This document shows positions 14,090-57,000 of a stretch of DNA of 64,000 nt, in pieces. The notes under the pieces were generated by a model. That model ran no database searches and was not told where the DNA came from. It was given only the letters and a program-made list of their open reading frames with translations. Both the position numbers and the translations under genes were made by a program. Positions within the stretch are counted from its first letter, which is position 1. Each line of letters starts with the position of its first letter. Origin of the DNA: Panopea generosa (taxonomy: Eukaryota > Mollusca > Bivalvia > Adapedonta > Hiatellidae); the NCBI GenBank assembly GCA_029582155.1, contig CM055898.1:37209458-37273457 (forward strand). Reading direction: 5' to 3'.

Positions 14090-14460
14090 GGGCCTATAAA
14101 ATTATTTGGCTCTGTTTGGCAAGTGCCTATTAAGCTGTGAGCACCCCCATTTTACCGGTCACCCATTTGCGGATAAGCATACTTGGCATACTATTCAACA
14201 TGCATTGTCATGCTTCCACTCGTCATTGGCACCTATTTCCGGACAGGGATTTGCACATTCAATCAAGCTTTAAAATTCTTAAAAATTGGCTCCGTTTGGT
14301 GCGGGCCTTATTAAGCTGTGAGCACACCTATTGTACCGATCACCTATTTCTGGACAGTCGTACTGATTCATGTATTTGTCATGCTTACGTTATACGTAGG
14401 CGGCACCTATTTTCGAATAGGGAATCGCACATTCAATCAAGCTTTATAAACCGCATAAAT
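14090..14460. repeat. Direct repeat (about 185 bp, 2 copies) inside the Helitron
   Basis: Two adjacent diverged copies, each containing TATTAAGCTGTGAGCAC and CACATTCAATCAAGCTTTA. Confidence 0.8.
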
Positions 14461-24361: not shown

Positions 24362-25072
24362 TGGAGACGCCGAAATACAGTTACTCTTATACTAGTACAA
24401 CCGTAGTGTATCAAAGATGAAATCTAATTGTGAGACGCCGAAATACGGATACTCTAATACTAGTATTACCGTAGTGTATCAAAGCTGAGACCTAATTCAG
24501 AGACACCGAAATACGGTTACTCTAATACTAGTATTACCGTAGTGTATTAATGATGAAACCTAATTTAGAGACAACGAAATACGGTTACTCTTATACTAGT
24601 ATTACCGTAGTGTATCAAAGATTAAACCTACTTTGGAGACACCGAAATACGGTTAATCAAATACTAGTATTACCACATTGTATCAAAGATGAAACATAAT
24701 CTGGAGACATCGAAATACGGTTACTCTAATACTAGTACAACCGTAGTGTATCAAAGATGAGATCTAATTGTGAGACGCCGAAATACGGATACTCTAATAC
24801 TAGTATTACCGTAGTGTATCAAAGCTGAGACCTAATTCAGAGACACCGAAATACGGTTACTCTAATACTAGTATTACCGTAGTGTATTAATGATGAAACC
24901 TAATTTAGAGACAACGAAATACGGTTACTCTTATACTAGTATTACCGTAGTGTATCAAAGATTAAACCTACTTTGGAGACACCGAAATACGGTTAATCAA
25001 ATACTAGTATTACCACACTTTGTTTCAAAGATGAAACATAATCTGGATACATCGAAATACGGTTACTCTTAA
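24362..25072 (+). repeat. Higher-order duplication (340 bp = 5 units, 2 copies)
   Basis: The rare variant ACTAGTACAACCGTAG at 24391 recurs at 24731 followed by the same chain of variants (CTAATTGTGAGACGCC, GTATTAATGATG, GGTTAATCAAATACTAG), exactly five monomers later. Confidence 0.85.
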
Positions 25073-30238: not shown

Positions 30239-30347
30239 GTGATATTCTATGCTTTTGATCAGCACAGATTTTGCTATTGATTGACTTTTAATGTAACAGT
30301 CCTTAAAATGATTTTGCTTTGGTGGGTTGGTGTATATCTATTAATCC

Positions 30348-30534
30348 GGGTTCGTATTCACCAAAATTCTGAGAATATTCTTAGACTTAAGCTTGAAAAT
30401 CCGAATTTCATCCTTAGAGGTCTAGTTTACCATGACAGATTGAGTAGTTGTGAGAGTGTATTTGTCTAATAATTCGGTGTCCTTGAGTTCGTGTCTTAGA
30501 ATATTCTTAAGAATGGTTGGTGAATTTGACTCCA
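30348..30534. mobile_element. MITE, copy A
   Basis: The ends are inverted: GTTCGTATTCACCAA...GAGAATATTCT at the left pairs with AGAATATTCTTAAGAATGG...TTGGTGAATTTGACTCC at the right, with arms of about 35 bp. No coding content. It was carried along in the segmental duplication (copy B 38257-38442). Confidence 0.75.
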
Positions 30535-30786
30535 GGTTTCTTGCATATTAAATAATAGCATCACCACCAGATGTTCAATCTGAAAAAAACCCCCAAAAAA
30601 ACAAGAAAAAAACAAACAAAAAAAAAAAAAACAAATTTACGAGTCTGCTTGCTTTGCAGTTAATTATATTTCCAGAATCTAAATTTATCAGTGTTTTGAG
30701 TCTGATATTTAGATTCAGAGTCAAAAGATCAAAAATGTAAGATTCAAATATATATTCCAGAAGCAAATTACTATATTTATTTACAG

Positions 30787-30864
30787 AAACAACAGTGTTG
30801 AGTATTACTTATATACAAAATGTTACAGTGGCACCTTTATTACCCGTAATTGTATGTTTACAGG
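30787..30864 (+). CDS. Possible short receptor exon (A)
   Basis: Acceptor ATTTACAG and donor CAGG|GTATAA enclose 78 bases open in phase 1-1, the phase used by the whole cassette, encoding TTVLSITYIQNVTVAPLLPV and a few more. It is kept open in copy B (38688-38765). There is no recognised domain, and the match could be chance. Confidence 0.3.
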
Positions 30865-33800
30865 GTATAAGAGCATAATACTTATGTTTATAATATGTGT
30901 TATTTTTCATTATATTCCTTGCATGCGTATAGTATGATTGGTTTCATTCTCATGTAGAGTAATATTAAATCAGCACCATCTCATTAGATTCCCATTATTA
31001 AAAAAATGTTTGTTGTTCACAGTAAAATATGCTCAGCTTTTAGCAAGTAATACAAATCATATACGCGAGTTTTCAATATCATCATGTAATATCAACAATA
31101 TGCCAGGTATATATAGAATATGTATCAGTCATGCTCTCAATTCTGACAGAGGTACAGAAGAAGGCAAATTATGCACGTTCCTCATTCGTTGAACAATCTT
31201 TTAATATAATGTGACAGCGTAAATAAAAAAAACATCGATCTTAAAAGGAGACGATGTAGAAAGATTAAACCTAACCTCAATATGGAAAATAAAACTGTGC
31301 TTCAGATACATGGCAATATCTGAACTACTGCCAGTATATATTTGTCTAAAATTACAGATCTGGGTCTTGGCGAAGCATGCACAGAAAGTAGTGAATGTTC
31401 CGACAAGGGAGCGATTTGTAACAGCACGTGCATATGTCAATCAAATCGATATGACAACAATGGTTTTAGTACCGGAGGTGCCTGTATGGACGGTATGAAA
31501 TGTTTATGAATTGTATATTTTTAAATTGTATTTATGGTTGTCAATAAATGCAAATATTGGATATTAAACAAATACACAAACTTGTCGTTTCGTCATTACC
31601 GTTACTCTATATTTACATGTATCAGTTAGAAAATGGATATGTATTTGATATGCCAAAATAAAACAACCTCACCCATGTATATTCCCAAAATCTCGATAAA
31701 ATATTGCCTCTTACTTTTTAAATTCGAAAGATTGGAACAAAGACGAAATTAGTGAACGCGGATGTATTATACAAGTTTATTAACCTGGGTTAAGTAGATT
31801 GGATATTTCATTTTCCTACAATAAATGTATGCAATATTTTGTACATGTAAATCACAAAAAAAAAAGACCACAAAAAGATGCTTGTTTTTATATTACAGTG
31901 CTGAAACTGCGTGTAGATATTGTATTCAGCGCCATAACAACAGTTGGATTTATTGTATCATGGACACCACCAAACGATAAACTACAACATATAGATGAGT
32001 ACACACTTAAATGGCAATCGTTTGACAATAAAGTTGTTGCTGGAGATACGGTAACATTAGCACGAAATGTGACATCATTTAACATATCATCAAACATCAC
32101 CGCAGGTCGTGCATACTCTGTATCTATAACTTCAAGGAACAGACAAACACAATATGATGTGGATAGAGTTACAGTGATGTATAGACAGCAGGCTGCACGT
32201 ACGTAGTTTTTAACTGACTGTGATTCGTACTCAAACAAGTAGTATAGAAAAAAGATTTTTACATTGATTATCATTTGTAAAATTAATAATTTAATGAGTT
32301 GTGATACAAAGAAAGTTTGCTGCAGTAACATTTAAAATGCACTAGCGCAGATTATTAGCATCAACATGAACATAATGTTCATTAATTAATTAATTATTTG
32401 ATAAAATTCTTTCTTTTATTATTTTTTATATATTTACTCTAATACTAGTATTACCGTAGTGTATCAAAGATGAAACTCAATTATTTACTTTTATTTGTAT
32501 TGTCTTTATGGCATAGGTATTTTATAGTTAAAAGTATTTATGAACTGTTGTTAAATTTATATAATTTAATTTATAGATATAGAAGTTTTATGAAAGATTG
32601 TACATCTGTATTATATTTGTAACCTTTTTATGTGAAACAAATATGCAACACCCTCATGGCCCTTAGCATCGGATAAAACGGTACATTTTATGACCGTCCC
32701 CCAGCACGTATGATTGTCTTGAATAAGACACTGATTTCTCATTATGATTGAACAATTTAGGGATCAGAACAAATCTTAAATATAACTATTTAGCCACTTT
32801 TTTTCGCCATGATATTATATTAATTGTGAACAAAGTCCATGTTCTGTGATGGCATTTGTAAAATGTGTTGGATGATTAAAATAATTTGAGCTAACGTATT
32901 ATGTTTTGAATAATAATAATTTGTTTTGACGTTCATGTTATATTCGATATGCATTTTTTTTAACCGTATACAATATTTGTAGTAGTGCAAACTTTCTTTC
33001 GTATACAATCTTCCTCGTTTTGAAACGGTGTTGTTCTTTATTATTCAAGTATGTTTCACATTTCAAATTATTTTCAGTTATCTCTCAGATTTAACTGGTT
33101 GTCAATTACAAGTATAATTAATCTAACTTACATCAGAAATGGTCCGATGAATACAAAACACGGCGTATCTGTCACCTTTTACTAATGTCCTTTCTGTGAA
33201 TACTGTTGGGTTAAAATAATATAATGTTTTGGTGTTTTTTTACTCAAATAAACTTCGTTTTATATTAATTATAGGCTTCAATATACATAATCTGTTCATT
33301 TTTATCTGAATTAAGAGCCAAGAAAACCCGGGCCTTTAACGAGAAACACCGACATCAGTATCAGCGACAACAGTATCACCATTACATGGATTGTTCCCAA
33401 CACCAATGTTAGTGTTGCCAGTGGTTACACTGCTGTGATACTTGACGGAACAGTGGTAAAGGAAAATAAAACAGTCCTTAAAGCAAGTGCCACCTTTTCG
33501 TTTTCCACCATTCTCTATGGTTACAGATATACTATTTGGATAACGACTAACAGTCAAAGGGCCGGTGGCGGTAATGTTGTTCTAAGTGAAACATACAAGG
33601 AGGAAATAAAGACTCTTGTAATAGGTAATCATTGAAATTGTGAATTCATTAAACTTCCGAAATGCACATTTTTTTATAATAACAAAAAAGATTGTAATTA
33701 AATGTGTTCATAGTACTGCTAAAACCATTCCTGTAGACCCCTTAGTGACTGTTTTTAAAAAAGCGAGAATATAAATAACTTCGATCGAAATTTCTTAGAC

Positions 33801-34100
33801 GAGCGGACCGAGCTTTTTAAATTTGTAATTCCGTAATGATTCGATTGCTTTCATTTAATATAATTTAACAATTTTTTATTGCAAATTTTACATGTACAAA
33901 ACATCAAATTGTAACACCAATAATGAATAAAATACAAAAGGGTTGGGCTACAAGTTTTAACAACATTAGTTACAGCTCTCTCCAATGCGTCAAAATGCAC
34001 ATACAAATTAAAGTGACGATATTTTTGATATACAAATAAACGCATATACTTTCGAACAAGCATATCACTCACTTCTACATGCATACAAGCACGCTCACTT

Positions 34101-34142
<42 letters not shown>

Positions 34143-37100
34143 AGAAAAAGTAGTAATATTTTAATATTCTACTTGAATTTTAGTAATTATAATAATGTTT
34201 TAAAGTAAAACAAGGTATATAAACATAAAATAAACTGTAAAAAAAAGAAGAAAAAAAATGAAAAAAAAAATGACAATATAAAAAAAGGTAGAAGAGTTGT
34301 TATTGTCTGCACCCCCAAAAAGGATAACATCCCCCATGATTCCGCCTGAGTCTTATATTAACATCTAGAGACATGAACTATTTGGAACTAATTATGACTG
34401 AAACGTTTAGAGTTTTTAATAAACTTTTGTACTTCTAAGAACATATGACCGTTTTCTTTTTCATTTTGATTTTTATTTCAACATAACAACTTGTTAGTAT
34501 TTAATAGATGATATTTTCTTGTTTCATTAAACAGCTGTAGCCTTTGAGTATTATATAGCTTGCATTGGAATAAGTAGTGTTCAGCATTTTCTAACATGCT
34601 ACCACAACTGCAAGAAGTATTGTCACGCAGGTGATTATTATATATTATTTAGGTCTGTATTAAAGTTGCTACAATTGTTTCGCATGCTTGATTAAGAGTA
34701 TGTCTTTAAAGTTTAAAACATTAAAAGCAGAGGAGAGCATTTGAGTATTATGTTCGTGCCATGAACCGTCCTGACCGAGTGTTACACCGAGATGTTTGTG
34801 ATGTGCTACAAAACTTAATGAGTACCTCGAAAACTAACGTATGGTTTATTTCGATTAATTAGGGATAAAAACATTACTTCAGTTTTATTTGAATTAAACT
34901 GAACTAGCCTTTGTTTTGACAATTTAGAAATAATTTAGGTCATTATTAAGTATGCTTTCCATTGAATTGATATTATTTGTTGAATAAGCTAATGAACTAT
35001 CATCTGCAAATAATCTTGCAATACTTAACATTGATTCAGCAATATCATTGACATATTCTAGAAATAATAAAGGACCAAGGACAGAGTGTTGTGAAACACC
35101 AGCACAAAATATGTGGTTATGAACGTTGTCTTGTGTTTTTTTTTTAAAAAAAAAATCACATAATATTACATACTCAATTGGATTACGGTCAATAAGTTCG
35201 AGATATATCGCCTTAATCGATGCAAATGGCGGACATATACTGATACAATTGTGAATTTTGACTTTCCGAGTCGTGCACTTTAAAAAGTTGTGACATGCCT
35301 ATTACTGTCTGAATTTAAATGAACATTTCTGAAAATATGCCTAATGTATTTGTTCATTATATTGTAGATTTTTTAAAATTGACAAACTCGTGTTGACAAA
35401 ATATCAATAATTCCAGGTTACCAATTATAACTATTGTTGAGAATATTTATCAATACATCTTTTATCTTTTATCATAGCAATGTAATCATATATGAAGTAT
35501 TTAAGAGTACAGGTTCGTATTTGTACAAAAAGGGACTAAGATTCATAGAGGCAATGCAAATGGGCGTTTAACTCTATGTAGATTACTGCAAAAACTGCCA
35601 AATATTTGTTTTTATATGAAATGAACAGTGATATTCAAGTGGACATTTTTTCAGGTTCTGTCTGCTTCTTGTGTTTCATATTCGTGATTGTAAACTGGCA
35701 TGACATCTGTAATGCAGATATTATTGATAATTAACTAAGGAGCAAGCTAGCATTACACCAAGTACAAAGTTCATATTATAAATCAAACTGTATATATGTT
35801 GTATATCAAAACGCAATTTAAATTACCCATTGTATATTTTTGTAACAATGACATAATCATCCATTATAAACTATAACATGTATGGCGACAAATGAATAAA
35901 TCAGTTGACATAATTATGTTATCATCAAATTGAACTTAACTTTAAATATAACTTTAAATATTGAATAAGAAGTATAACCCACGAGGTTAAGTAATACTAT
36001 TCATTTTTTTTGTAATAGTTTTATTTTTTATATTTGAAACGTTAGAATACTTAAAAAGTGTTAAAACATTATTTCTTTATACAAATTCATTATGCTTTTG
36101 TTTTAAATCATTGCTTTTAACTCATATGTATTGTATGTCCAGACTATCGTGATCAAGGCGTTTGTTTTATGGTGCAACAACTGCAATATAAATCTATATT
36201 CAATAGTAGAAAAAATGCATCTGTGAACATATTTTTGTAAAATTTATTCCAATAAATAAATATACTATAAACAACTGAATGATTCGTCGCTTAGATGCAA
36301 AATTATTAATATTATTTTATTAAGCAATTCGAGTTTTTCTCTAACGTGAGGTTATCTTCACTTTTCATTTTAAAGGTATTATATCAGAATTTTTCAAAAT
36401 TTTAAAATTTGCCCTGAAAACATTTTTTTTCTTACATACCGTGCTTATATATACTCACTGACTCCGTATTGCAAAAAACATATTTATTTATTATATATTT
36501 AGATATGCCAAAATAACAGTCTAAAAAGGGCTTTACTACTTTGGGCTACGCGCCCAGGTTAGACTAATTTAAAAATAAAGTTCCCACTTAAAACATATTT
36601 TGTGCCGTATTGAATGATCCGTTATACAGGTTTACACGTTGTAACAATTGTTTCATCTGATAAAAAGTCAGAATGACGATGTGAAGGTCGTCAAACAGTA
36701 TTTAAGTGCTGTCTATTTCCAGAATGGGGATTTCATTTCAATTTTATCACTTCATTGATATATTTGATATACTAATCTATTCGGATTCAATTTATTAATA
36801 CAAAATCCATTTTAATAATAATAACATTTTTAAGATATTTATAGCGTTTTATCCTGATTCACTCCCTTTATGTGAAAAACGAATTGTAAAATACGAGGTT
36901 TTCCATACTCTTCAGAACCTAACGAACCTACCAGTTTTAGATGTGCTGCTCTATCTAATGAGTATGTAGACCTTGCATGGTTGCCACCACCAATTCCTAA
37001 TGGAGACATTGTGCAGTATCATATTGAAGTGTATAACGATAACTACACACTAATAGCAACACATAATACTGTTAATGCAAGTACATCGTTTCGTGTGACA

Positions 37101-38491
37101 GGCTTGACTCCAGGTAAGCAACTGTTTTAAACTTAGAATTTGGCAATCTTGTCTTTTATTTTAAATAAAGATTGATAACATCAAAAAATTCATTTTCGAT
37201 TCATATGGACACATTTAAGCGGTTAAACTACCACACTGTTTTGCTATATTTGACACTGCTTGGTTCTTACGACTGTAATACTTGCATGGTGTAGAGTGAA
37301 AAAAGGTTAAAACGAGAGCTAGTAGGTTTATTTTGTGTCATACAGCGATGATTTTTATTTATGTCTACGTGTCTGTTTGTAATACATTGTCAGTGTAAAG
37401 ACGGCACTGTCTGGGGCCTTTTAGTTTTAGTGTACACCATATACAAAGTATATTTATTTGTGTTTGTATCCTGTGATATCCAAATTTTTCATAACTATAT
37501 TAAAAACGTCAATATCTCACTGAGTTTTGCAAAATTTCTGATATCAATAACATGTACGAAATATGTCAGGGTGGAGTATTAGAGTGATTTGTACTGTTCA
37601 CTACCTAGGCATCAGTTTATCACAGCAAAAGCATATATGATTGTAGTTTATCCCAGTATTTCCCCATTGAAATATGTTATATCCGAATGCAATAACTTGG
37701 AATTCCATGCTAGTCCATAATATCATTGCGCTTTACTGCGTTAACGAACTGTAAAGTTGTTCAACTTCAGCTGTAGCAAGTGGCCAATCAGTGTGCTTGT
37801 ATAAAGAAAATTGTTACCAGATGACTGATAACAATAGTCGCACACCGAACAATATTATAATAACAATCTTGGGAAAAGTATATAATAAAGTAATAGAACG
37901 GATTATATACATATACAAAAAAAACTTTTATAATACAGGTACCTACTACAGGTTTGGAATTTTTACGGAGAATGAGAAGTACAATTCTAGCAAACGCATA
38001 TTTGCCGTTCCTCTCTGTTTGACAAAAGAACGACGTAAGTGTGATGATTTTTCTTTTCCCTCAAATATAATGTGTATAGATTAGTTTCTGAACATATGCA
38101 ATGGGATTAGTCTTGATATCAGAGACTAATTATACCAGTACCATGACGTGATATTCTATGCTTTTGATCAGCACAGATTTTGCTATTGATTGACTTTTAA
38201 TTTAACAGTCCTTAAAATGATTTTGCTTTGGTGGGTTGGTGTATATCTATTAATCCGCGTTCGTATTCACCAAAATTCTGAGAATATTCTTAGACTTAAG
38301 CTTGAAAATCCGAATTTCATCCTTAGAAGTCTAGTTTACCATGACTGATAGAGTAGTTGTAAGAGTGTATTTGTCTAATAATTCGGTGTCCTTGAGTTCG
38401 TGTCTTAGAATATTCTTAAGAATGGTTGGTGAATTTGACTCCAGGTTTCTTGCATATTAAATAGTAGCATCAGCACCAGATGTTCAATCTG

Positions 38492-38539
<48 letters not shown>

Positions 38540-41500
38540 ACGAGTCTACTTGCTTTGCAGTTAATTATATTTCCAGAATCTAAATTTATCAGTGTTTTGA
38601 GTCTGATATTTAGATTCAGAGTCAAAAGGTCAAAAATGTAAGATTCAAATATATATTCCAGAAGCAAATTACTATATTTATTTACAGAAACAACAGTGTT
38701 GATTATTACTTATATACAAAATGTTACAGTGGCACCTTTATTACCCGTAATTGTATGTTTACAGGGTATAGGAGCATAATACTTATGTTTATAATATGTG
38801 TTATTTTTCATTATATTCCTTGCATGCGTATAGTATGATTGGTTTCATTCTCATGTAGAGTAATATTAAATCAGCACCATCTCATTAGATTCCCATTATT
38901 AAAAAAATGTTTGTTGTTCACAGTAAAATATGCTCAGCTTTTAGCAAGTAATACAAATCATATACGCGAGTTTTCAATATCATCATGTAATATCAACAAT
39001 ATGCCAGTATATATAGAATATGTATCAGTCATGCTCTCAATTCTGACAGAGGTACAGAAGAAGGCAAATTATGCACGTTCCTCATTCGTTGAACCATCTT
39101 TTAATATAATGTGACAGCGTAAATAAAAAAAACATCGATCTTAAAAGGAGACGGTGTAGAAAGATTAAACCTAACCTCAATATGGAAAATAAAACTGTGC
39201 TTCAGATACATGGCAATATCTGAACTACTGCCAGTATATATTTGTCTAAAATTACAGATCTGGGTCTTAGCGAAGCATGCACAGAAAGTAGTGAATGTTC
39301 CGACAAGGGAGCGATTTGTAACAGCACGTGCATATGTCAATCAAATCGATATGACAACAATGGTTTTAGTACCGGAGGTGCCTGTATGGACGGTATGAAA
39401 TGTTTATGAATTGTATATTTTTAAATTGTATTTATGGTTGTCAATAAATGCAAATATTGGATATTAAACAAATACACAAATTTGTCGTTTCGTCATTACC
39501 GTTACTCTATATTTACATGTATCAGTTAGAAAATGGATATGTATTTGATATGCCAAAATAAAACAACCTCACCCATGTATATTCCCAAAATCTCGATAAA
39601 ATATTGCCTCTTACTTTTTAAATTCGAAAGATTGGAACAAAGACGAAATTAGTGAACGCGGATGTATTATACAAGTTTATTAACCTGGGTTAAGTAGATT
39701 AGATATTTCATTTTCCTACAATAAATGTATGCAATATTTTGTACATGTTAATCACAAAAAAAAAGACCACAAAAAGATGCTTGTTTTTATATTACAGTGC
39801 TGAAACTGCGTGTAGGAGATATTGTATTCAGCGCCATAACAACAGTTGGATTTATTGTATCATGGACACCACCAAACGATAAACTACAACATATAGATGA
39901 GTACACACTTAAATGGCAATCGTTTGACAATAAAGTTGTTGCTGGAGATACGGTAACATTAGCACGAAATGTGACATCATTTAACATATCATCAAACATC
40001 ACCGCAGGTCGTGCATACTCTGTATCTATAACTTCAAGGAACAGACAAACACAATATGATGTGGATAGAGTTACAGTGATGTATAGACAGCAGGCTGCAC
40101 GTACGTAGTTTTTAACTGACTGTGATTCGTACTCAAACAAGTAGTATAGAAAAAAGATTTTTACATTGATTATCATTTGTAAAATTAATAATTTAATGAG
40201 TTGTGATACAAAGAAAGTTTGCTGCAGTAACATTTAAAATGCACTAGCGCAGATTATTAGCATCAACATGAACATAATGTTCATTAATTAATTAATTATT
40301 TGATAAAATTCTTTCTTTTATTATTTTTTATATATTTACTCTAATACTAGTATTACCGTAGTGTATCAAAGATGAAACTCAATTATTTACTTTTATTTGT
40401 ATTGTCTTTATGGCATAGGTATTTTATGGTTAAAAGTATTTATGAACTGTTGTTAAATTTATATAATTTAATTTATAGATATAGAAGTTTTATGAAAGAT
40501 TGTACATCTGTATTATATTTGTAACCTTTTTATGTGAAACAAATATGCAACACCCTCATGGCCCTTAGCATCCGATAAAACGGTACATTTTATGACCGTC
40601 CCCCAGCACGTATGATTGTCTTGAATAAGACACTGATTTCTCATTATGATTGAACAATTTAGGGATCAGAACAAATCTTAAATATAACTATTTAGCCACT
40701 TTTTTTCGCCATGATATTATATTAATTGTGAACAAAGTCCATGTTCTGTGATGGCATTTGTAAAATGTGTTGGATGATTAAAATAATTTGAGCTAACGTA
40801 TTATGTTTTGAATAATAATAATTTGTTTTGACGTTCATGTTATATTCGATATGCATTTTTTTTAACCGTATACAATATTTGTAGTAGTGCAAACTTTCTT
40901 TCGTATACAATCTTCCTCGTTTTGAAACGGTGTTGTTCTTTATTATTCAAGTATGTTTCACATTTCAAATTATTTTCAGTTATCTCTCAGATTTAACTGG
41001 TTGTCAATTACAAGTATAATTAATCTAACTTACATCAGAAATGGTCCGATGAATACAAAACACGGCGTATCTGTCACCTTTTACTAATGTCCTTTCTGTG
41101 AATACTGTTGGGTTAAAATAATATAATGTTTTGGTGTTTTTTTACTCAAATAAACTTCGTTTTATATTAATTATAGGCTTCAATATACATAATCTGTTCA
41201 TTTTTATCTGAATTAAGAGCCAAGAAAACCCGGGCCTTTAACGAGAAACACCGACATCAGTATCAGCGACAACAGTATCACCATTACATGGATTGTTCCC
41301 AACACCAATGTTAGTGTTGCCAGTGGTTACACTGCTGTGATACTTGACGGAACAGTGGTAAAGGAAAATAAAACAGTCCGTAAAGCAAGTGCCACCTTTT
41401 CGTTTTCCACCATTCTCTATGGTTACAGATATACTATTTGGATAACGACTAACAGTCAAAGGGCCGGTGGCGATTATGTTGTTCTAAGTGAAACATACAA

Positions 41501-42002
41501 GGAGGAGATAAAGACTCTTGTAATAGGTAATCATTGAAATTGTGAATTCATTAAACTTCCGAAATGCACATTTTTTTATAATAACAAAAAAGATTGTAAT
41601 TAAATGTGTTCATAGTACTGCTAAAACCATTCCTGTAGACCCCTTAGTGACTGTTTTTAAAAAAGCGAGAATATAAATAACTTCGATCGAAATTTCTTAG
41701 ACGAGCGGACCGAGCTTTTTAAATTTGTAATTCCGTAATGACTCGATTGCTTTCATTTAATATAATTTAACAATTTTTTATTGCAAATTTTACATGTACA
41801 AAACATCAAATTGTAACACCAATAATGAATAAAATACAAAAGGGTTGGGCTACAAGTTTTAACAACATTAGTTACAGCCCTCCCCAATGCGTCAAAATGC
41901 ACATACAAATTAAAGTGACGATATTTTTGATATACAAATAAACGCATATACTTTCGAACAAGCATATCACTCACTTCTACATGCATACAAGCACGCTCAC
42001 TT

Positions 42003-42052
<50 letters not shown>

Positions 42053-45000
42053 AGAAAAAGTAGTAATATTTTAATATTCTACTTGAATTTTAGTAATTAT
42101 AATAATGTTTTAAAGTAAAATAAGGTATATAAACATAAAATAAACTGTAGAAAAAAAAAGAAAAAAATGAAAAAAAAATGACAATATAAAAAAAGGTAGA
42201 AGAGTTGTTATTGTCTGCACCCCCAAAAAGGATAACATCCCCCATGATTCCGCCTGAGTCTTATATTAACATCTAGAGACATGAACTATTTGGAACTAAT
42301 TATGACTGAAACGTTTAGAGTTTTTAATAAACTTTTGTACTTCTAAGAACATATGACCGTTTTCTTTTTCATTTTGATTTTTATTTCCACATAACAACTT
42401 GTTAGTATTTAATGGATGATATTTTCTTGTTTCATTAAACAGCTGTAGCCTTTGAGTATTATATAGCTTGCATTGGAATAAGTAGTGTTCAGCATTTTCT
42501 AACATGCTACCACAACTGCAAGAAGTATTGTCTCGTAGGTGATTATTATATATTATTTAGGTCTGTATTAAAATTGCTACAATTGTTTCGCATGCTTGAT
42601 TAAGAGTATGTCTTTAAAGTTTAAAACATTAGAAGCAGAGGAGAGCATTTGAGTATTATGTTCGTGCCATGAACCGTTCTGACCGAGTGTTACACCGAGA
42701 TGTTTGTGATGTGCTACAAAACTTAATGAGTACCTTGAAAACTAACGTATGGTTTATTTCGATTAATTAGGGATAAAAACATTACTTCAGTTTTATTTGA
42801 ATTAAACTGAACTAGCCTTTGTTTTGACAATTTAGAAATAATTTAGGTCATTATTAAGTATGCTTTCCATTGAATTGATATTATTTGTTGAATAAGCTAA
42901 TGAACTATCATCTGCAAATAATCTTGCAATACTTAACATTGATTCAGCAATATCATTGACATATTCTAGAAATAATAAAGGACCAAGGACAGAGTGTTGT
43001 GAAACACCAGCACTCAAGGATTTTGTATCAGAAAACGATGAACCAACAAAGACCCGTTGGGGTCTGTTTGTAAGATAAATTGATAACCACTTAATTAGAT
43101 TTCCTGATATTGACGAAGTTTGAATATTAACTCTTTATGCCAGACTCTGTCAAATGCTTTTGATATGGCACAAAAACAATGCACGTATACTCCTTTTCAT
43201 CAAAAGCTTTACATATTTGATTATAAATAGCAATAAAGTTGAAAAATAGTAGAATGTCTTGGTAAAAAAAAACAGATTGATTTTGATAAATAAGGTCATT
43301 AAAATGGAGATAGTAATATAAATATTTAAAAACAATACGCTGCATTATTTACCAATACAACTAATTAAAGAAATTGGTCTATAATTTGACGGGATGTCTT
43401 TGTCTCCTTTTTTAAAAAGTGGTTGCTTTCCTACTGTACGGAAGTACACAAATGAATACTACAGTGGTAGTGTGCGGATTAAGACTGTTAGATAAGAGAT
43501 TCATTAACAAGATTAGAAAAGTTATCACTTCACTATATTACATATCGTTATTGGTTGTTTTTTTTTAAATATATTGATGTCTGCAATAAAACTGTATGCA
43601 TTATATTATTTATACGCACTGAAAAACAATAAGTACGGAATACTAGTTTGGCCTAGTAACACTTGCTCAGGATATTCCCTTGCATATACGCGTGATACTA
43701 CCGCACGCGCTATTACGTCACAAATCACTTTATTGCAATCAATATTGAGAGGCAACCAAGGGTGGTTTGTTTAGTACAGTTATTAAAAAAGTAAATTTTT
43801 TTTAAATTTTGATATCAACGATTCGTCGCTTACGTGCAATAAATGAGCTCGTGGGTTCCAGTTCATTAATACACTGAGGGAAATAAATAAATGGAATGTT
43901 GTTAAAAACTATCTAACCACAATTTAATTTTTAACCGCATCCCCTACAGTTCCCCATACTATGTTTCTCTCTGAAGTGAATTGATCATATATTACCGACC
44001 GACGCGTTTCCGAACAAGCTTCGTAACTCCCCGTTTTCTGCCGAAGGTGTTTATCGGAAAGAGACGAACATTAATTTGTAAACAAAACCCGTTCATAATT
44101 TTATACTAATAATGTGCTTTATATTTATTTGTTCGTTTGCAAAATCTCTCAGTGATCAAATAAACATGTATTCTATAATATGGAAGAGTAAAACTGACTT
44201 AAATTAAAACTAAAAACGACTATTTGGGAAGTTTAATGAGCCTTTAACCTACATTAAACATTTTTCTCAATATACGTTACACAAGAGTATCAATGAAATA
44301 TTTCATTTCACATCTGTTTCTACAAAGACATGGCCGAGTCTTAATAGGGGTAAAACATTTATTGTCGTAATTAAGCGTTTCAAAAGAATATTAATGAAAA
44401 ATGAAATATTTTATTTCGTATCTATTTCTGCACAGGCATGATTGAGCCTTAATAGGGGTAAAACATTTATTCTAATTATGCGTTACAAAAATATATCAAA
44501 GAAAAATGAAGTATTTCATTTGACATCTATTTCTACAAAGACATGACCGAGCCCTAATAGGGGATAATCATTTATTCTAATTATGCCTTACAAAAGAATA
44601 TCAATGAAAAATGAGCTACTAGTATTTCATTTCACATTTATTTTTGCATGGACATGATTGAGCCCATATATGGGTAAAACATTTATTCTTGTTTTATGTT
44701 ACAAAAAATAACAATGAAAAAATGAAGTATGTCATTTCACATCTTTTTCTGAATAGGCATGACTGAGCCCAATTGTAATCTACATTTTAATGCATCAAAC
44801 CATTTTGCATATATTCCATAAAATGTCATTAAAATTAATAAAGCAATAGATATTTATGTACCAACTATTTGAAATGCACCACCTGCGAAGTCAAAATTCA
44901 CAAACTATATCGTTATCATGTACGTACAGCATTAGCAGCGATTTGACCTCATTGAAACAATTTTAATTCTGCAAGAATCTTTGGACAGTGTTGTTCAAGA

Positions 45001-48000
45001 CCTCGATAATGTTCTGATTTAAATACATCAAAATATGTGGTTATGAACGTTGTCTTGTGTTTTTTTTTTTAAAAAAAAATCACATAATATTACATACTCA
45101 ATTGGATTACGGTCAATAAGTTCGAGATGTATCGCCTTAATCGATGCATATGGCGGACATATACTGATACAATTGTGAATTTTGACTTTCCGAGTCGTGC
45201 ACTTTAAAAAGTTATGACATGCCTATTACTGTCTGAATTTAAATGAACATTTCTGAAAATATGCCTAATGTATTTGTTCATTATATTGTAGATTTTTAAA
45301 ATTTACAAACTCGTGTTGACAAAATATCAATAATTCCAGGTTACCAATTATAACTATTGTTGAGAATATTTATCAATACATCTTTTATCTTTTATCATAG
45401 CAATGTAATCATATATGAAGTATTTAAAAGTACAGGTTCGTATTTGTACAAAAAGGGACTAAGATTCATAGAGGCAATGCAAATGGGCGTTTAACTCTAT
45501 GTAGATTACTGCAAAAACTGCCAAATATTTGTTTTTATATGAACTGAACAGTGATATTCAAGTGGACATTTTTTCAGGTTCTGTCTGCTTCTTGTGTTTC
45601 ATATTCGTGATTGTAAACTGGCATGACATCTCTAATGCAGATATTATTGATAATTAACTAAGGAGCAGGCTAGCATTACACCAAGTACAAAGTTCATATT
45701 ATAAATCAAACTGTATATATGTTGTATATCAAAACGCAATTTAAATTACCCATTGTATATTTTTGTAACAATGACATAATCATCCATTATAAACTATAAC
45801 ATGTATGGCGACAAATGAATAAATCAGTTGACATAATTATGTTATCATCAAATTGAACTTAACTTTAAATATAACTTTAAATATTGAATAAGAAGTATAA
45901 CCCACGAGGTTAAGTAATACTATTCATTTTTTTGTAATAGTTTTATTTTTTATATTTGAAACGTTAGAATACTTAAAAAGTGTTAAATTTCTTTATACAA
46001 ATTCATTATGCTTTTGTTTTAAATCATTGCTTTTAACTCATATGTATTGTATGTCCAGACTATCGTGGTCAAGGCGTTTGTTTTATGGTGCAACAACTGC
46101 AATATAAATCTATATTCAATAGTAGAAAAAATGCATCTGTGAACATATTTTTGTAAAATTTATTCCAATAAATAAATATACTATAAACAACTGAATGATT
46201 CGTCGCTTAGATGCAAAATTATTAATATTATTTTATTAAGCAATTCGAGTTTTTCTCTAACGTGAGGTTATCTTCACTTTTCATTTTAAAGGTATTATAT
46301 CAGAATTTTTCAAAATTTTAAAATTTGCCCTGAAAACATTTTTTTTCTTATATACCGTGCTTATATATACTCACTGACTCCGTATTGCAAAAAACATATT
46401 TATTTATTATATATTTAGATATGCCAAAATAACAGTCTAAAAAGGACTTTACTACTTTGGGCTACGCGCCCAGGTTAGACTAATTTAAAAATAAAGTTCC
46501 CACTTAAAACATATTTTGTGCCGTATTGAATGATCCGTTATACAGGTTTACACGTTGTAACAATTGTTTCATCTGATAAAAAGTCAGAATGACGATGTGA
46601 AGGTCGTCAAACAGTATTTAAGTGCTGTCTATTTCCAGAATGGGGATTTCATTTCAATTTTATCACTTCATTGATATATTTGATATACTAATCTATTCGG
46701 ATTCAATTTATTAATACAAAATCCATTTTAATAATAATACTATTTTTAAGATATTTATAGCATTTTATCCTGATTCACTCCCTTTATGTGAAAAACGAAT
46801 TGTAAAATATGAGGTTTTCCATACTCTTCAGAACCTAACGAACCTACCAGTTTTAGATGTGCTGCTCTATCTAATGAGTATGTAGACCTTGCATGGTTGC
46901 CACCACCAATTCCTAATGGAGACATTGTGCAGTATCATATTGAAGTGTATAACGATAACGACACACTAATAGCAACACATAATACTGTTAATGCAAGTAC
47001 ATCGTTTCGTGTGACAGGCTTGACTCCAGGTAAACAACTGTTTTAAACTTAGAAGTTGGCAATCTTGTCTTTTATTTTAAAAAAAAGATTGATAACATCA
47101 AAAAATTCATTTTCGATTCATATGGACACATTTAAGCGGTTAAACTACCACACTGTTTTGCTATATTTGACGCTGCTTGGTTCTTACGACTGTAATACTT
47201 GCATGGTGTAGAGTGAAAAAAGGTTAAAACGAGAGCTAGTAGGTTTATTTTGTGTCATACAGCGATGATTTTTATTTATGTCTACTTGTCTGTTTATAAT
47301 ACATTGTCAGTGTAAAGACGGCACTGTCTGGGGCCTTTTAGTTTTAGTGTACACCATATACAAAGTATATTTATTTGTGTTTGTATCCTGTGATATCCAA
47401 ATTTTTCATAACTTTATTAAAAACGTCAATATCTCACTGAGTTTTGCAAAATTTCTGATATCAATAACATGTACGAAATATGTCAGGGTGGAGTATTAGA
47501 GTGATTTGTACTGTTCACTACCTAGGCATCAGTTTATCACAGCAAAAGCATATATGATTGTAGTTTATCCCAGTATTTCCCCATTGAAATATGTTATATC
47601 CGAATGCAATAACTTGGAATTCCATGCTAGTCCATAATATCATTGCGCTTTACTGCGTTAACGAACTGTAAAGTTGTTCAACTTCAGCTGTAGCAAGTGG
47701 CCAATCAGTGTGCTTGTATAAAGATGACTGATAACAATAGTCACACACCGAACAATATTATAATAACAATCTTGGGAAAAGTATATAATAAAGTAATAGA
47801 GCGGATTATATACATATACAAAAAAAAAACTTTTATAATACAGGTACCTACTACAGGTTTGGAATTTTTACGGAGAATGAGAAGTACAATTCTAGCAAAC
47901 GCATATTTGCCGTTCCTCTCTGTTTGACAAAAGAACGACGTAAGTGTGATGATTTTTCTTTTCCCTCAAATATAATGTGTATAAATTAGTTTCTGAACAT

Positions 48001-51000
48001 ATGCAATGGGATTAGTTTTGATATCAGAGACTAATTATACCAGTACCATGACGTCTCTTTATAAAAAAATTCATTCCTGTAGCGGTTTAGAGTAAATTTT
48101 GATAAACTGTTAATAACTAATATACGCTAACCCTTTATCCCTTTGGGATTTAACAATTGATTTTAAGGGTTTTATGTACGAGTTTTTCAAAGAACTCTTC
48201 ACGAGTCATTATGTATTTCTGGTGCCGATGCATGCATTGGGTAAACACAGATTCAAAACATTGAGTAGCAAACCCCCGCACAACTTGCTGTACATGCTTC
48301 ACTTATGCATCGATGTTCTCGTGTCTGACTCCTTTAGCTGATAAGGATAGACTTCACCAACGTCACGAGTCCATCATTGATTTATCCCGTCGTCTCGGTC
48401 TCTCATCATCAGCAGTTGAACTTCTACCGTCCGAAAATCGTTTTTGCCACGTGTACACTAATACACGGCATATTTTCGGTTTTTCTGTTGCAGATTTTAT
48501 GATTTGAATGGTATCTCCTGGAGATTTTCATAAAGAATTAATTATAGTGCACTCTTCCGCGACGTTAAATTTGCACGTTTTTTTGCGTCATCAGAATGTC
48601 ATGCAGTTACGGAAACTGGCTGTAAAATGTAAACAACTTGCACGTTGCAGCTGCAATTGTCATGTTATGACGTCGACTTCACATAATTTTTACCGATAAA
48701 TATATCGTATGTATTTTTTCATCTTTCTTGTGATGTCCGACCTGCCCCGCACATCGTTATACGAGTATTCATAAGACATAGTACTTTATAGTAATAAAGT
48801 TGAATTTGATCAAACTGCGTTATTTTTCTGATAACGCCTAGTCTACGCATTTTACGGACACACCTCGTAATATTATTCAAACACTAAATGAGATGACACG
48901 CTTATGAATAAAACATTTATCATAAAATATAGAGATTGGCAGAGCAATATCTGGGACGTGATGACCTAAGGTTTAATTTATAATAGTATTTCATGTACTA
49001 TTAAACACATGCGCTATGTAGATGAACTTAATAAACACGTCAAAACCTGAAAACATGTCTCATGGCGATACAACCATTTTACGAACATGATTTACCCAGG
49101 GTACACCTGTGAGTACCTACATGTATGTATCTTTTGTTATCACGTTCGTATATGTTACACGTATGAAACATATATCGTCTTACATGGCCTAGTGATTAAG
49201 GTGTTCGCCTCGGAAGCGGGAGGTCGAAGTTTCGAAACCTGATGGAAGCACTTGGATTTTTCCGATGCGACCGGTTTCTCAACCAGTAGCTAGTTAAACT
49301 GAAGGGTACCGAATAATAGCCTGACGCCTGGCAATGATAGCTTTCAGAAAGTAACTGTGTACAGCATCAAGGTGTCTCATGAGCCCTTTTAATAGGATGT
49401 GACACTATAATAAACAAACACTTTATTTCTTACTTTTATAGGAAAATATATACTGAAATGATACAAAATCGAGTGAATGGCAGCCATATTATCGAACTAG
49501 TGTCAGGGATATTTACAGTTTTAGAATATAATATGTATGTAAAGGTATTCTATTAATGATTTTGTCAATAAGAATAATCATATTGACAAAATCATAAAAC
49601 AAATACCTTCAACTACATATTATAAAACTGTAAATATCGCTTACAGTACTTTAAGAATGTGGTTCCGAAATTAGCCCGCCGTTTCTCTATCCTGTCAGTG
49701 TATTTCCAATGACATATGTAGTATTCGAAAGAGATTGCCACTGCAAAGCACAATCGCAATAAATGCATAAAATAATTACAATGTATCAGTGTAGTACATA
49801 TATATAAAAGACATGACAAACAGTGACCATTCTTCATTCGAACGGTCAGTAGCAAAACTTGTCACTGGGTAGCTGAAATCTATAAATTGGTAGGACAAGC
49901 CTCCTTCTCCATTACTTCATGTTCACATCATAAAGCGAGATAGTTTAAGTTTGAGTATCCCTGCCAGGTTATTATCAAACAACATATAATTTACGTCATA
50001 TGTTTTGCACATTACGTCATAAATGAGTCTCAACGTCATAGCACGAGAGTTTGATCTCGGCCGTAGGGTGAGATAAAAAATATCTCATCCCGGTAAAAAT
50101 GCAGATATCCTTATCTGGTGTGCAAGGAATACGACAACATGTACCAGGCCCTACTCTCAACTTGAGATTTTCCTCAACTAAAAAATTTGAAATGTTATAA
50201 CTTCATTTACATTGGTCATTTTGCGTGTTATCCTTGTCTAATGATTTAAGATGTGTATCAATGTTTATTATGTAAGGTCATTAAATGTGTAATAAGTTCG
50301 AGTAATAATTTAGAGAAATTGAATATTTTGAGTTGAGGGAACTCTCAGCTTGAGATTTTTAATGAAAAAATGCCCCTTATATAATTAATTTGAGTTTTGA
50401 ATGTGGACTTTCAGTGTCCGATCCTCCGCAAAATTTGTTGATATCTGATTTGAGCAGCAGAAGTATGACCATTTCTTGGGAGGAACCAAACAACACATAT
50501 AGTGAGGACATCCTCGGATACGTCCTGCAGATAAGAACCAGAAATAATGACTGTGTTTTAGAAAGAAGATACATGTGCTCAGATTGTACTAAACATATTG
50601 AGGTACTTTGCATACTATTGTTTCTGTTATCTTTTTATATACGCTTACAATCTGACGTTCATATACATTTAAGTAAAACCGAGCCAGCATGATGCGTCCA
50701 ATGCCTCGAAGTGATGCTTGTTTAAGATATCCTTGAATTAACAATAGTTTAATGTGCCTTGTGGCGTCTGCAAAATGTCTTTCTTACTTTGACGTGTTGT
50801 TGTAACTATTTCTGGTTCTTTGAGATCGTTGATCTCATTAATTTGATGTTTCTAGTATAATAAACTACTGCTTTGAGACATTGCTAGGATGACGTACTGG
50901 TGGGATGTTTCACTTAACGTTATACATCATGAACAGGTTCAGTAAAGTCAAGTGTTTTTTCTAGGTTGTGTTCAAGGGATCATATATCTAATATTATACT

Positions 51001-54000
51001 CGTAATCAACCATATATAAATGGGAAACACAGCTATTACCATATTATGACCAATGCATGCCAACTAATATACCAACCTGCTACACATTGTTAGTACATTT
51101 TAACGGTTAATAATAATTTGGTAAAACAGCTGCTAAGCTGATCAAATTCGCATACATATATAACAAATCAGTTGCTTGACCTGGAAGAGGAAGCGTTTCA
51201 TCGACGGTGTTGTAGAGTTACCAGGACAGAACTTTCGGTTGATAAATAAAGGATCTTACATGAGTGCTTATTTATTACTGAATTTATCAAATGAGTTGGA
51301 ACACATATATTATGCGAGGCTCTGCCGAACATTATATCATTTTTCTCAACGAGTTTGATATATTCAATAATAAATTAGCACGATTATTACATAACATAAA
51401 CGTTTACAGTTACCATTTATTAAACTGAGGATCTAGACAAAATCGGGCATATTTGTGTCCATGAGTCATCGTATGACGTAACGTCTCAAAATAATTTCAT
51501 TTAACTACGGCAAATATACGTAATCGATTAATTCGGGCAAGTCCGAAGATATTTCGGCAATTTACGTACGAGAGCCGAGATATACGGAAAACACCGAGCG
51601 ATTAATCGGAAGTGATATTACACTCGGTTAATATCAAACATATGTCATGTGTTTATTACACTCCTGCACCGTAAATTACGTGATAATGCGTTTTAGGCAA
51701 ACAAAGGAAAGTGATATGCAGTCATTTCGTGATAAGAACCAACTATGTAATATATATACTATTGATTTCTATTCCAGGCACTTTCGTGACGTCAACATTA
51801 AAGGAAAATTATTATCTTTTATATATATTTTATACATATTTTAATTGTTTACAGTTAATGATTTATTTGTTCTTTTTTTATAAGACTGCCTTGAGTGGTC
51901 TTTGTCCAACGAATGCCAGCCTAGAAATACCAAAAACCAAGTTGCAGTTTACCGGTAGGCAGACTTTCATGGCGGACACGTTGTTACCATCTATACAATA
52001 CACAGTCAGTGTAACAGCCATTAACGGCGTAGGGCATGGTCATGCAGCCCAAGCGAATCAGACAACAAATGAAGATGAAAAAGGTTTGTGATAATTAATA
52101 TAAAAGGACCCTTTGTAAGCAAAGGATGCAACACAGAAAAGAAATTACATGTTATTTAAATTGTCAATTAGTAGCAATGTCACGTGGAAAACCACTCATG
52201 TCTCAAAGCAAAGGAGTAAAAATAATGTCGTTGTTTTATCACCTAATTGTCTGGTCTGTTATTGCAGAGATTATTTCTGACTATAGGCTTTGGGAAGGCT
52301 TGGCTGAAACTGGTGATTACTTCATGCACATTAGTTGGGTTTGATGACTTTAATTTAAAATCATTCTCAAACATATAAATTTAGCATTTGTGGTCGAACT
52401 GTGCGTTGTTTCAAGCGCATGGGTTTGGTTTGAGATTAAACTTATTCTTAAACATATGCTGTCCAGACACATTGTCTAAACAGCCTGTCTCATCATATAG
52501 TGTTGAGTAACAGTTAGTCCAACACTATATGTGTTTGAACCAGTATACTACTTATATATAATTAGTTTGATTATTATTTGTATGATTTTTAAATAATAGA
52601 ATATTTAAAATTTACGAATCAGGAGGCAAGAAGCTCAAGGAAACTTTATACGTTATATAGTTTGAACAAAATTGTTTAACATATATTCAAGCTAGCCTGT
52701 TTCACAGCTTAATCCAGTGAAGAAACGGTCGCCTTACAGAAGATCCCATTTTAAGTTCAATATACTTACACCAACATCTTGACAATATGCTTAAACAGTA
52801 TTTCAATTTGTCAAGACACATTGAATTAGCTCCATTATCGAAAAGGAACAGAAATTAAAATAAAACACTCACTGAATCAAAGTATTAAAATACGGGCCGA
52901 CATTTAACACACAGCACGAAATGCTGATGTTGTGAAATTCAAATATATCTGACTACAGTATAAGGATTTTTTGGAGAGAATAGAAGAAAGAATACCTTTT
53001 TTCTTATATCAAAACATTGCTATTTTTGTTAATAAAAGAAATCGTTACGATCACCAATGCAATGAATTCATACTTCTATTGTCATTACTGTATGTATGTA
53101 GGTAGGTAGGTAGGTAGGTAGGTAGGCAGGCAGGCAGGCAGGCAGGCAGGCATGTATGTATGTATGTAGGTATGTAGGTATGTATGGTATTCTACTTTAT
53201 ATATTTATTCTGTATATTGATAATGTGTGTACTGTTGTGGTGGTGTCCCTTGAATGCTACGTCACCATTTGGACTCATCTTTTTCGTATTTATAAAATAT
53301 ACCTGAGCAACTTAATACATACTAATTATGGTTTGTGATTATATGAATACCGTGTGTGATAGCTGACAATGCTATATCTATACGCACTGAACCATTTTCT
53401 GAAAACATAATCATTGAAATATATGGATTGCTCTTTTGTATAAGTGTTAATATTCATATAATTACGCTAACTGATTTATCTATTTTTCATATATGTATTT
53501 TATTACTGAAATAAAACGTTTCCTTTGCTCTTCATTGGTAACATAAATACATGAATTAAGAACTACTCGAACTTCATAGAAAGTGTGTATATATATCAAG
53601 CATTAAGGCCTTACTAATCATACTTTGAGCATTTCTATGTCACAGTGTGTACGTAACCTACTAGGAGAGGAATTTATGTAAGCGGTTCGATTAGCTCAGA
53701 CGGTAGAGCATTCGCCCTGTAAGCAAAGGGTCCCGGGTTCGAGTCCCGGACTGGCTGCATATTTTCTCGTCCTGTTACATTTGGCGCCCTACGAGGGACT
53801 GTGACTGATATATATTCCGAGAAACATTTCACATGATTCTCTGTTCTTTATGGAAATTCGGGACGAATTCCAAATTTGTGAGGGAATATGTCACAGTGTG
53901 TACGTAACCAACTAGGAGAGGAATTTATGTAAGCGGTTCGGTTAGCTCAGACGGTAGAGCATTCACCCCGTAAGCGAAGGGTCCTGGATTCGAGGCTGCA

Positions 54001-57000
54001 TATTTTCTCGTCCTATTATATTTAGCTCCGGGAAACGACGTTGGATATGTTCAGGGTATAGAAGTTTTTCAAGAATATAGATAAAGGACAGACAATGAAT
54101 TGCAAAAAAGACACACGCATATAGATAAAGATATAATCAATTTGCATATATAATACATTGTATGTAACTTAGCAGACCCGATCCAATGCTTTACTACAAA
54201 CTAATATATATGTATTACAAGTGTTTGCATTTAACAACATATCTATATTATTTTTACCAAGTATTTTATGTTAATCATATCAAGTATATAAAAATATTAG
54301 AAAAATGCTTACATTTTGTTTCTTCAGATCCCATAAGCAACACAACTGTAACTACAGTTATTGCAGTTTTGGGCTGTGTCGTCTTTGTGGCGGTAGTCGT
54401 CATTGCAGCTGTATGGTACTACAGACGTCGATTATCAACAGTTATGAAAAACAACGGTTAGTATATTTCATAAAATTTTAAAAAATAAGTTCATTCTAAA
54501 ATTCTATTTTATTTTTACCACCAAAATAATATATATTCAGTCAAGAGGGGTAATTTATTTATTAAATATATTCAAATTTTATCTTCTTAATCAGCCTTTA
54601 ATTTTCGTATTCAAAAAGGAATTGCTTGTATGGTTGATGCAACAAAAGTACACCTCTGAATACATGCCTCAAGTGGATATGCAATTTTAAAGGAATCAGT
54701 ACAATTCATACTTTTCCTCATTAATACTTAAAACTTCAGTTCTATGCTAAATATATATAATATAAAAAGACAAAGTTACTTTTATTTCCCATTTCTTAAA
54801 GTAACTTAAAAAAACTTTATTCTGCTGTGTAATTCTTTCTAAATTTTAGTGTGATTCAATATAAGAACCATTTTATTTTATGATTGTCACAACTAAATAA
54901 AAGCAAACAGAATATAATATAGTATAACATTTACCCTTTCCCGCTACTAAACAAAATGTTGAATAGTTACTTAAACCATTATTGTGTTTAGAATTTAATC
55001 CAATGCTCGAATATTTGAATTTAGGTTAAATGTAATTCCTGGCTAACAAAAACTCATCTTGTTACCTACCCACATTTTTAAAAGGAATATAAACTGAAAG
55101 CGCTATGCAAGCGATCACCTCTATTAAGCAGCCTCTTGTCTTAAGCAGACACATTTGCTGTTTCCCATTTCTGAGCTATCAGAGTAAAATCATCTGTATT
55201 AAGCATCAACCTGTATTATACCCTATACTTTTGATAATTCCGTATACTGGCTGTTTAGTGCATGTTGACTGTATTGGCAAATTACACATAAAAGTTGTAA
55301 ATGGAGACATTTTCAAAAATATCCGTGCACGCACCTGCCGGTTGAAAAATAATTGAAACATGCAATTGTCACAAACTCTATTTTTAGAATGGGTGTGCAC
55401 TATCAATGAATAGTTATAGGTTCCGTACGAAAATCCGACACCATGATAATAGTAAAATGGAAACGAAGAACAAACGCAGTAGTATTCTTGCGTTTTTTTC
55501 TGACATCGAATTCGTAAAACAGGTTATAAGGACCTGACCAATGGTATTATGTGGTCTTCACACAATTGTAAACACTTGACCATTATGCTAGTGAACCGAA
55601 TTTGTTTCCGTTCAGTTGTTGACATTGTGTCTGAGAATCATAGTTTACCTTAACTTATTAAACAATCATATACTAATAAATAAACCCTTGAAAAAATGTC
55701 ACCATTGCCGGTGTGTTAAATATAAACACGTACACAACAACTGACACCGTCTTAGTGTGTGTTAGTTGGTTGGAATACCGAAGGCAGTTCGTTCAAAATA
55801 GGAAATGTAAATAAATCAAATGACGCAGCTTCTGAAAACCGACACATATAATAAAACGGATGTATAACTATATATTATGGATATACAAATGAGTTAACGT
55901 TATACCATGTATATATTATTGCTGGTAATGTTTAGTTGCTATACCATAGTCAGAGTTGAATGCAAATATACTCCTCTTTAGCGTGTTAAGTATATAACAC
56001 GCCATATCTATAGAACCCATCAAAGCAAAAGGGTATATATATATATTGTATAACATAGTGTAGTTGCGAAGAAACTGACGTTTGGTACATCAGAATATAT
56101 CAACATAATACAACTGATACTATAATAACTTATATTTCATTGTGTTTTAACTTTACGCAGGTATATCTGCCGGAAAGAAAACAGAATCGACGTAAGTTAA
56201 CTAATACACAATAATTACTGATAAAGACGATACTATGATACTGTGTAAATAACATAAACGTTTAAAATATTGATACATATTTATATATAAACACCATTCC
56301 TACATGAATATAATATAGGTTAAACATATGCTGCAAACCAAACGCCAGATCATGTGTAACACTTATATTTGTATATGGTTTAAACATATTCAATTGCTTT
56401 TAAATAACAAGCAAACGGGTAAGGTCACAAGTTCTAAGACATAGTCTTCCTTTCAATTTACAATCTACATTAGAATCAAGATGACAATAATATTCAATAG
56501 GAAATGAACAAACAATCAAATAGAAGAAATAGAACAATGGAAAACCAAATGTAGAAACCAACATAAAAAAATAAAGTAAATACATAAAAGATTTTATTTA
56601 CATGCTGTCATAATTTTATTCCGGTGTATTGGAGGGCTGCTAAAATGTGAGTATCTGATACATGTAACACGAGAGTCGGTTGTTGACAAACGTTTCCGGT
56701 ATATAATGAATTGGGCTGCGTTCATCAACGATTAAACACTTTTTTCTCTGTTTATAAACGCAAACGGTGACCAAACGAACGAAAAGTAAAAGGAAATCGG
56801 ATAACATCGGCGTTGTCCCTTTATTTCTCTTTCAGGCACATAATTAAACACAAGCAAACAATATTTTTGTTTATAATACATGTAACACACTGTTAATAAA
56901 TCGATTTGCAGCATTACTTATAGTATTATTATGTGAATCTTAAATTGTATTTTGCATTGCGTGATAGTCTCTTGTAATTCCTATATTTAAATGACTTTGT

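Follow-up and report, generated by a model that had tools for sequence, protein, structure and literature searches.

Does this stretch of Panopea generosa DNA (the window, 64,000 nucleotides of contig CM055898.1) hold a receptor gene whose ectodomain was lengthened by a recent, in-frame tandem duplication of exons, or is the apparent repeat an assembly error, or a duplication without effect on the protein? Self-comparison of the window revealed two copies, A and B, lying head to tail in direct orientation and adjacent to one another (Table 1). Positions 30239-35105 matched 38148-43013 at 98.7% over 4878 columns, and 35105-38149 matched 45029-48054 at 98.3% over 3048 columns, a similarity far above chance. 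Full alignment showed 14 indels between the copies and, across 7875 ungapped columns, 73 substitutions (0.93%); with three simple-repeat stretches masked, 63 substitutions remained in 7707 columns (0.82%). The direct, near-identical copies of a preliminary description were thus confirmed, including their near-identical introns.

The edges of the copies are sharp, and both breakpoints are apparently intronic, outside all exons found. The final two bases of copy B, GT, form the microhomology at the join. With 40 of 2052 candidates scored, the 1101 bp across the junction had one full-length occurrence, its halves reappeared nowhere but at the two outer edges, the remaining 76 of 79 matches were each <200 bp and fell on two dispersed-repeat stretches, and a third copy of the cassette was not found among the matches listed. 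The main indel between the copies is present in B only. Its start completes a reverse-transcriptase-like frame on the minus strand (42832-43134), and for this reason the segment is read as lost from A; the continuous frame in B matches another copy within the window at 46% over 100 columns, and in A the resemblance to that other copy is good only past the break. A Pfam search with the B frame by itself yielded nothing at E 0.01.

Table 1. Coordinates of the duplication, the predicted exons and the main indel (positions within the window).
Feature	Positions	Strand	Basis or remark
Copy A, cassette [EB, FN3a, FN3b, FN3c]	30239..38147	+	7909 bp; self-comparison, alignment
Copy B, cassette of copy A plus 2016 bp	38148..48054	+	9907 bp; self-comparison, alignment
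A exon 1, EB-like six-Cys module	31358..31492	+	phase 1-1; below profile cut-off
A exon 2, FN3a	31899..32198	+	phase 1-1; profile match
A exon 3, FN3b	33316..33624	+	phase 1-1; below profile cut-off alone
A exon 4, FN3c first half	36916..37113	+	phase 1-1; profile match
A exon 5, FN3c second half	37939..38034	+	phase 1-1; profile match
Putative chimeric intron between the last exon of A and the first of B	38035..39257	+	formed by the duplication
B exon 1, EB-like	39258..39392	+	borders, phase
B exon 2, FN3a, one codon more than A	39798..40100	+	borders, phase
B exon 3, FN3b	41218..41526	+	borders, phase
2016 bp retained in B, lost from A	43014..45029	-	A/B alignment, frame comparison
B exon 4, FN3c first half	46832..47029	+	borders, phase
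B exon 5, FN3c second half	47844..47939	+	borders, phase
FN3d (common last FN3), first half	50415..50602	+	phase 1-0; profile match
FN3d, second half	51885..52083	+	phase 0-1; profile match
Membrane-span exon	54328..54456	+	phase 1-1; hydrophobic residues, by eye
Tail mini-exon, 31 bp	56161..56191	+	phase 1-2; counterpart with intact borders in downstream copy
Tail exon	57094..57197	+	phase 2-1; gene model
Last coding exon with stop codon	58303..58379	+	gene model

The same five exons recur in each copy with phase-1 borders, as had been described: all ten cassette exons have AG/GT borders, phase 1-1 and a length divisible by 3, and splicing from A to B is therefore possible in frame. The complete model comprises 16 exons (AG at 16/16 acceptors, GT at 15/15 donors), in which FN3d is split across two exons and the tail is encoded by three further exons after the membrane-span exon; an intron to the left of copy A is presumed, no 5′ exon having been found. 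As the preliminary description held, the frame is kept across both copies, and the predicted two-cassette protein of 935 residues is open until a TGA at 58377-58379; a one-cassette form would have 589 residues.

In the profile search, PF00041 (FN3) chain scores amounted to 138.5 bits over four stretches; taken alone, FN3a (41.5), FN3c (48.8) and FN3d (51.5) exceeded the cut-off of 25, and FN3b, at 21.7, lay below it. A single-sequence structure model of FN3b was all-beta, at low confidence (mean pLDDT 55). The first exon of the cassette encodes six Cys and matched PF01683 (EB) at profile positions 18-50 of 52 with 19.5 bits, against a cut-off of 24.3. One hydrophobic span of ∼21 residues, located by eye without a span predictor, follows the ectodomain and is succeeded by YYRRR, from which a short tail of ∼83 residues runs to the stop. 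The span, the basic residues and the short tail fit a predicted single-pass type I layout, and the gene model agrees with the earlier architecture of two blocks of a six-Cys module and three FN3 domains before a common last FN3, a membrane span and a tail. Among the open frames listed, no kinase or phosphatase domain was seen by eye behind the span; a YVNR motif in the tail presumably resembles a Grb2 SH2 site.

The explanation that we consider likely is a real, recent tandem duplication of ∼8-10 kb in a single-pass receptor gene, with a predicted ectodomain lengthened by in-frame splicing. The duplication may have arisen by end-joining or a replication-type event with 2-bp microhomology, after which a transcript could be spliced from A to B via a new 1.2-kb chimeric intron, so that the ectodomain would change from EB-FN3x4 to (EB-FN3x3)x2-FN3; the longer protein might then act at the cell surface with altered ligand avidity or reach. 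Skipping of either cassette would leave the frame intact, so production of the old 589-residue form could continue alongside that of the 935-residue form, which would make the duplication tolerable. At a distance of ∼18 Mb, this contig carries related loci (54.77, 54.92, 55.28, and 55.43 Mb), and each of the four has a single FN3a-like and a single FN3b-like exon; judged by the exons detected they appear to contain one cassette each, and a change from one cassette to two is therefore the favored direction.

At the 5′ end, no signal-peptide exon was found between 5.8 and 31.36 kb of the window, where candidates were weak only (one in the scan of 14-31 kb). An ATG at 30308 was rejected as a signal-peptide start; it falls in a region of the cassette where differences between A and B are above average. 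The related locus L022 has an additional upstream EB-like exon, for which no counterpart was found within 111 kb upstream of the gene described here. Also upstream of the gene are a satellite array of 9.5 kb and part of a LINE. The 3′ end of the gene recurs 31 kb downstream as an incomplete and partly broken copy, which is unlikely to serve this gene as a second ending, because by eye its tail exon has no acceptor at the corresponding position and its last exon is shortened by 8 bp.

Comparison of the exons of A and B gave dN 0.0063 and dS 0.0042, with five of six substitutions nonsynonymous against a neutral mean of 4.4 of six, and the exonic substitution rate was not significantly lower (P 0.14); nothing in these six exonic substitutions pointed to purifying selection between A and B. 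At this divergence the chance of no stop is about 0.81 (P), and open frames in both copies are thus expected by chance. Relative to the downstream copy, the second half of FN3d had dN 0.163 and dS 0.038 over 60 codons, and FN3d second half and membrane exon pooled had dN 0.186 and dS 0.153; with these pooled values, and with dN/dS from about 0.2 to 1.4 among three close related loci, diversifying selection on FN3 is not claimed. The divergence of A and B would give the age of the duplication only loosely: it would overstate the age if the units came from two different alleles and understate it if the copies were homogenized by gene conversion, of which a 1.6-kb stretch with two differences hints at a trace (2 of 1000 permutations were as low, with the window size picked afterwards). 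With a divergence of 0.8-0.9% open to skew in either direction, the case for a very recent event is weaker than the preliminary description put it.

In a heterozygous animal two alleles could plausibly differ by as much, and the divergence fits an artefact in which A and B are two alleles of one individual placed end to end by the assembly; a transposon remnant that differs by 2 kb may likewise be allelic. False duplications are among the commonest assembly errors and can be mistaken for exon duplications (PMC8081667), which also speaks for such an artefact. Against it, the 264 kb around the junction contain no N, and a repeat scan of these 264 kb (at least 600 bp, at least 88% identity, satellite of the window excluded) found, among the 40 longest matches, only two other tandem arrays besides the A/B duplication. 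Moreover, A and B differ about every 100 bp, which should be resolvable if the reads were long and accurate. A false duplication of two haplotypes is accordingly judged unlikely.

A real duplication could alternatively be without effect on the protein, with the gene truncated at its 5′ end or silent, or with one cassette always skipped. The failure to find a signal-peptide exon, the upstream satellite and LINE sequence, the near equality of dN and dS between the copies and the broken 3′ copy downstream are in line with this reading, which is nevertheless improbable given 16 exons with canonical borders in a single frame open to the stop; first exons, furthermore, are short and easily overlooked from sequence alone. 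The receptor gene is probably a clean case, real and recent, of a known route of protein growth. Clean ectodomain growth with introns still near-identical represents an intermediate stage that is usually erased, and the locus could bear on whether duplications of this type start out as neutral changes, with both forms made and no selection, or are favored at once.

The literature searched on FN3 and EB receptors of bivalves, mollusks and sponges, and on tandem exon duplication, yielded no description of this gene. Shuffling and duplication of symmetric class 1-1 modules are known from animal extracellular proteins, and all cassette exons here are likewise in phase 1 on both sides; the difference is that five exons and four domains were doubled at once, with introns still near-identical. 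By analogy, the duplication appears to be of the same kind as the repeats of human CR1 and kringle IV-2 of human LPA, a mechanism already well known. CR1 consists of long homologous repeats, each of seven SCR, with a membrane span and cytoplasmic tail behind them (PMC6883348), and is, like the receptor predicted here, a membrane receptor with an ectodomain built from a duplicated multi-exon, multi-domain unit, although it has four SCR repeats, compared with two predicted copies of EB and three FN3 here. A rather doubtful extension is that the family is growing at two levels, by whole-gene duplication in a 0.65-Mb cluster of this chromosome and, inside the gene described here, by a CR1- and LPA-like series of cassette copy numbers, variable between individuals, with short and long forms arising by allele and by skipping. 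In LPA, near-identical tandem units of 5.5 kb add whole domains (PMC4378929, PMC11462820), and one unit is linked to the next by an intron of 1.2 kb (PMC4378929), the length of the putative chimeric intron here; however, LPA has from 1 to >40 units of two exons, with strongly variable copy number, whereas two units of five exons are found here.

The window (G+C ~33%, zero N) contains two direct, near-identical units, A and B, each carrying one exon cassette. In a MAFFT alignment, they differ by 73 substitutions in 7875 ungapped columns plus 14 indels, or by 63 in 7707 with three simple-repeat stretches masked. Their edges are sharp (60 bp inspected on each side), and 2 bp (GT) are common to the A-B junction and the right edge of B, which we read as putative microhomology. 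These adjoining units bear out the preliminary description of a near-identical direct tandem duplication of receptor exons. Two short dispersed repeats (30341-30550 and 30671-30870) lie in the left part of the cassette in A, with dozens of matches on many contigs, mostly 77-89% over 110-210 bp.

False duplication is a recognized assembly hazard that can mimic exon duplication, as passages of PMC8081667 describe; however, the junction region contains no N, which argues against this origin, and an assembly artifact is unlikely. The surrounding 264 kb also has zero N, and among the 40 longest matches listed there (length ≥600 bp, identity ≥88%, the window's satellite excluded) were the A-B duplication and two other tandem arrays, and nothing else. 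In the genome (1.474 Gb, 39 contigs; window at C5:37209458-37273457, C5 being CM055898.1), the 1101 bp spanning the junction occurred at full length once, with its halves recurring at the units' outer edges; the other 76 of 79 matches were each <200 bp and confined to two stretches of dispersed repeat, with 40 of 2052 candidates scored. When the first 1262 bp of A served as the query (40 of 2982 candidates scored), full-length matches came from A and B alone, and 55 of the 57 matches were short. The tandem duplication is very probably real; its description was good, and the kind of event is ordinary.

Features of the duplicated locus and related sequences (unprefixed coordinates are those of the window)
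Feature	Position	Strand or orientation	Details
Unit A	30239-38147	direct	abuts near-identical unit B; window self-comparison
Unit B	38148-48054	direct	abuts near-identical unit A; window self-comparison
FN3d	3' of unit B		two exons, phases 1-0 and 0-1
Membrane-span exon	3' of FN3d
Tail mini-exon			31 bp, phase 1-2
Tail exon			104 bp, phase 2-1
Last exon	ends at TGA 58377-58379
LINE-type reverse transcriptase remnant	8974-14101	minus	RVT_1 108 bits for 12724-13524
Related EB-FN3 cluster	C5:54.77-55.43 Mb	minus	L018, L020-L024, L026, L028

Each unit has five exons, encoding an EB-like six-Cys module, FN3a, FN3b, and FN3c split over two (135, 300 [303 in B], 309, 198, and 96 bp), and all ten have AG/GT borders and, as had been claimed, phase 1 on both sides. 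Pfam fn3 scored 138.5 bits over four stretches of the single-cassette chain; FN3b alone reached 21.7 bits against a cut-off of 25, and the EB-like module alone 19.5 against 24.3. A phmmer search of solved structures matched titin, receptor phosphatases, fibronectin, neogenin, and others (35 distinct sequences at E 0.001), mostly via FN3c and its neighbours. Upstream of the cassette lies a 9.5-kb array of a 68-bp satellite (19625-29149; higher-order periods 136 and 204 bp), and exons of a short-chain dehydrogenase-like gene occur at 3038-5794 on the plus strand, with adh_short matches below cut-off for two of three pieces.

The tail exons came to light when the locus was compared with an older partial copy (second half of FN3d, membrane span, and tail) at C5:37292320-37297807 (window scale 82863-88350), 31 kb downstream of the locus and past a 534-codon frame that we read as a putative carboxylesterase-like protein. 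The FN3d first half was not found with this copy, which is partly broken; by eye, the acceptor of its tail exon is missing at the corresponding position, and the last exon is shorter by 8 bp. From the first EB exon, the chain comprises 935 residues with both units versus 589 with one, without internal stops, so that both copies fit the unbroken frame earlier proposed to run on into FN3d, the membrane span, and the tail. A tRNA family match at 53691-53750 (40.3 bits) is perhaps a tRNA-derived SINE, and a piece near 53933 resembles it by eye.

Since neither border of a unit falls within an exon and all cassette exons are symmetric, the tandem unit would act as a removable cassette. Between FN3c of A and EB of B lies a stretch of 1.2 kb (38035-39257) that would serve as a new intron, with CAT (His) as the codon split across the predicted join; inclusion of both, either, or neither cassette would keep the frame each time. 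The product is likely a longer single-pass receptor, with a short form still possible.

The alignment also revealed 2016 bp present in B and absent from A. A minus-strand frame in B (42832-43134) continues across the breakpoint and matches another reverse transcriptase in the window (12724-13524) at 46% over 100 columns; in A, a good match begins only at the breakpoint. Searched alone, the B frame gave zero Pfam matches at E 0.01. B therefore represents the older state and A a deletion, which would have arisen after duplication or already in the allele ancestral to A.

Exons carry 6 differences in 1038 positions, five of them nonsynonymous, plus one codon indel, versus 67 in 6837 outside exons. 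The exonic shortfall does not reach significance (P 0.14), and the nonsynonymous share is as under neutrality (neutral mean 4.4; dN 0.0063, dS 0.0042); there is thus no sign of selection keeping both units, and none of decay. The differences are unevenly spread, with only two in a 1.6-kb stretch around FN3a, possibly a conversion tract (2 of 1000 permutations were as low, for a window chosen after looking); the longest clean run alone was not significant (57 of 1000). As a recent example, the duplication is attractive; conversion, if it acted, would mean an older event than is apparent, and if the units come from two alleles, their divergence predates the duplication.

The one-cassette protein gave 67 matches genome-wide at E up to 10. 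Besides this locus and the partial downstream copy, strong matches fell in the cluster on the same contig, on the opposite strand, where each of four loci shows a single FN3a-like and a single FN3b-like exon (43-52% identical to the query, starts 2.8-6.3 kb apart); an EB-like exon is present at three of these loci. Three of the four are fairly close copies of one another (FN3a exons differ at 16-18 of 300 bases). Also in the cluster are additional FN3d-like matches, three weak matches to the membrane span (E 0.8 to 1.1), and, at one locus, L022, an extra EB-like exon upstream. Judged from exon matches, among which diverged exons may escape detection, the one-cassette form is likely ancestral.

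The cassette would work in the same way as the long homologous repeats of human CR1 and the kringle IV-2 repeat of human LPA, and it shares those of their defining features that genome sequence can show.
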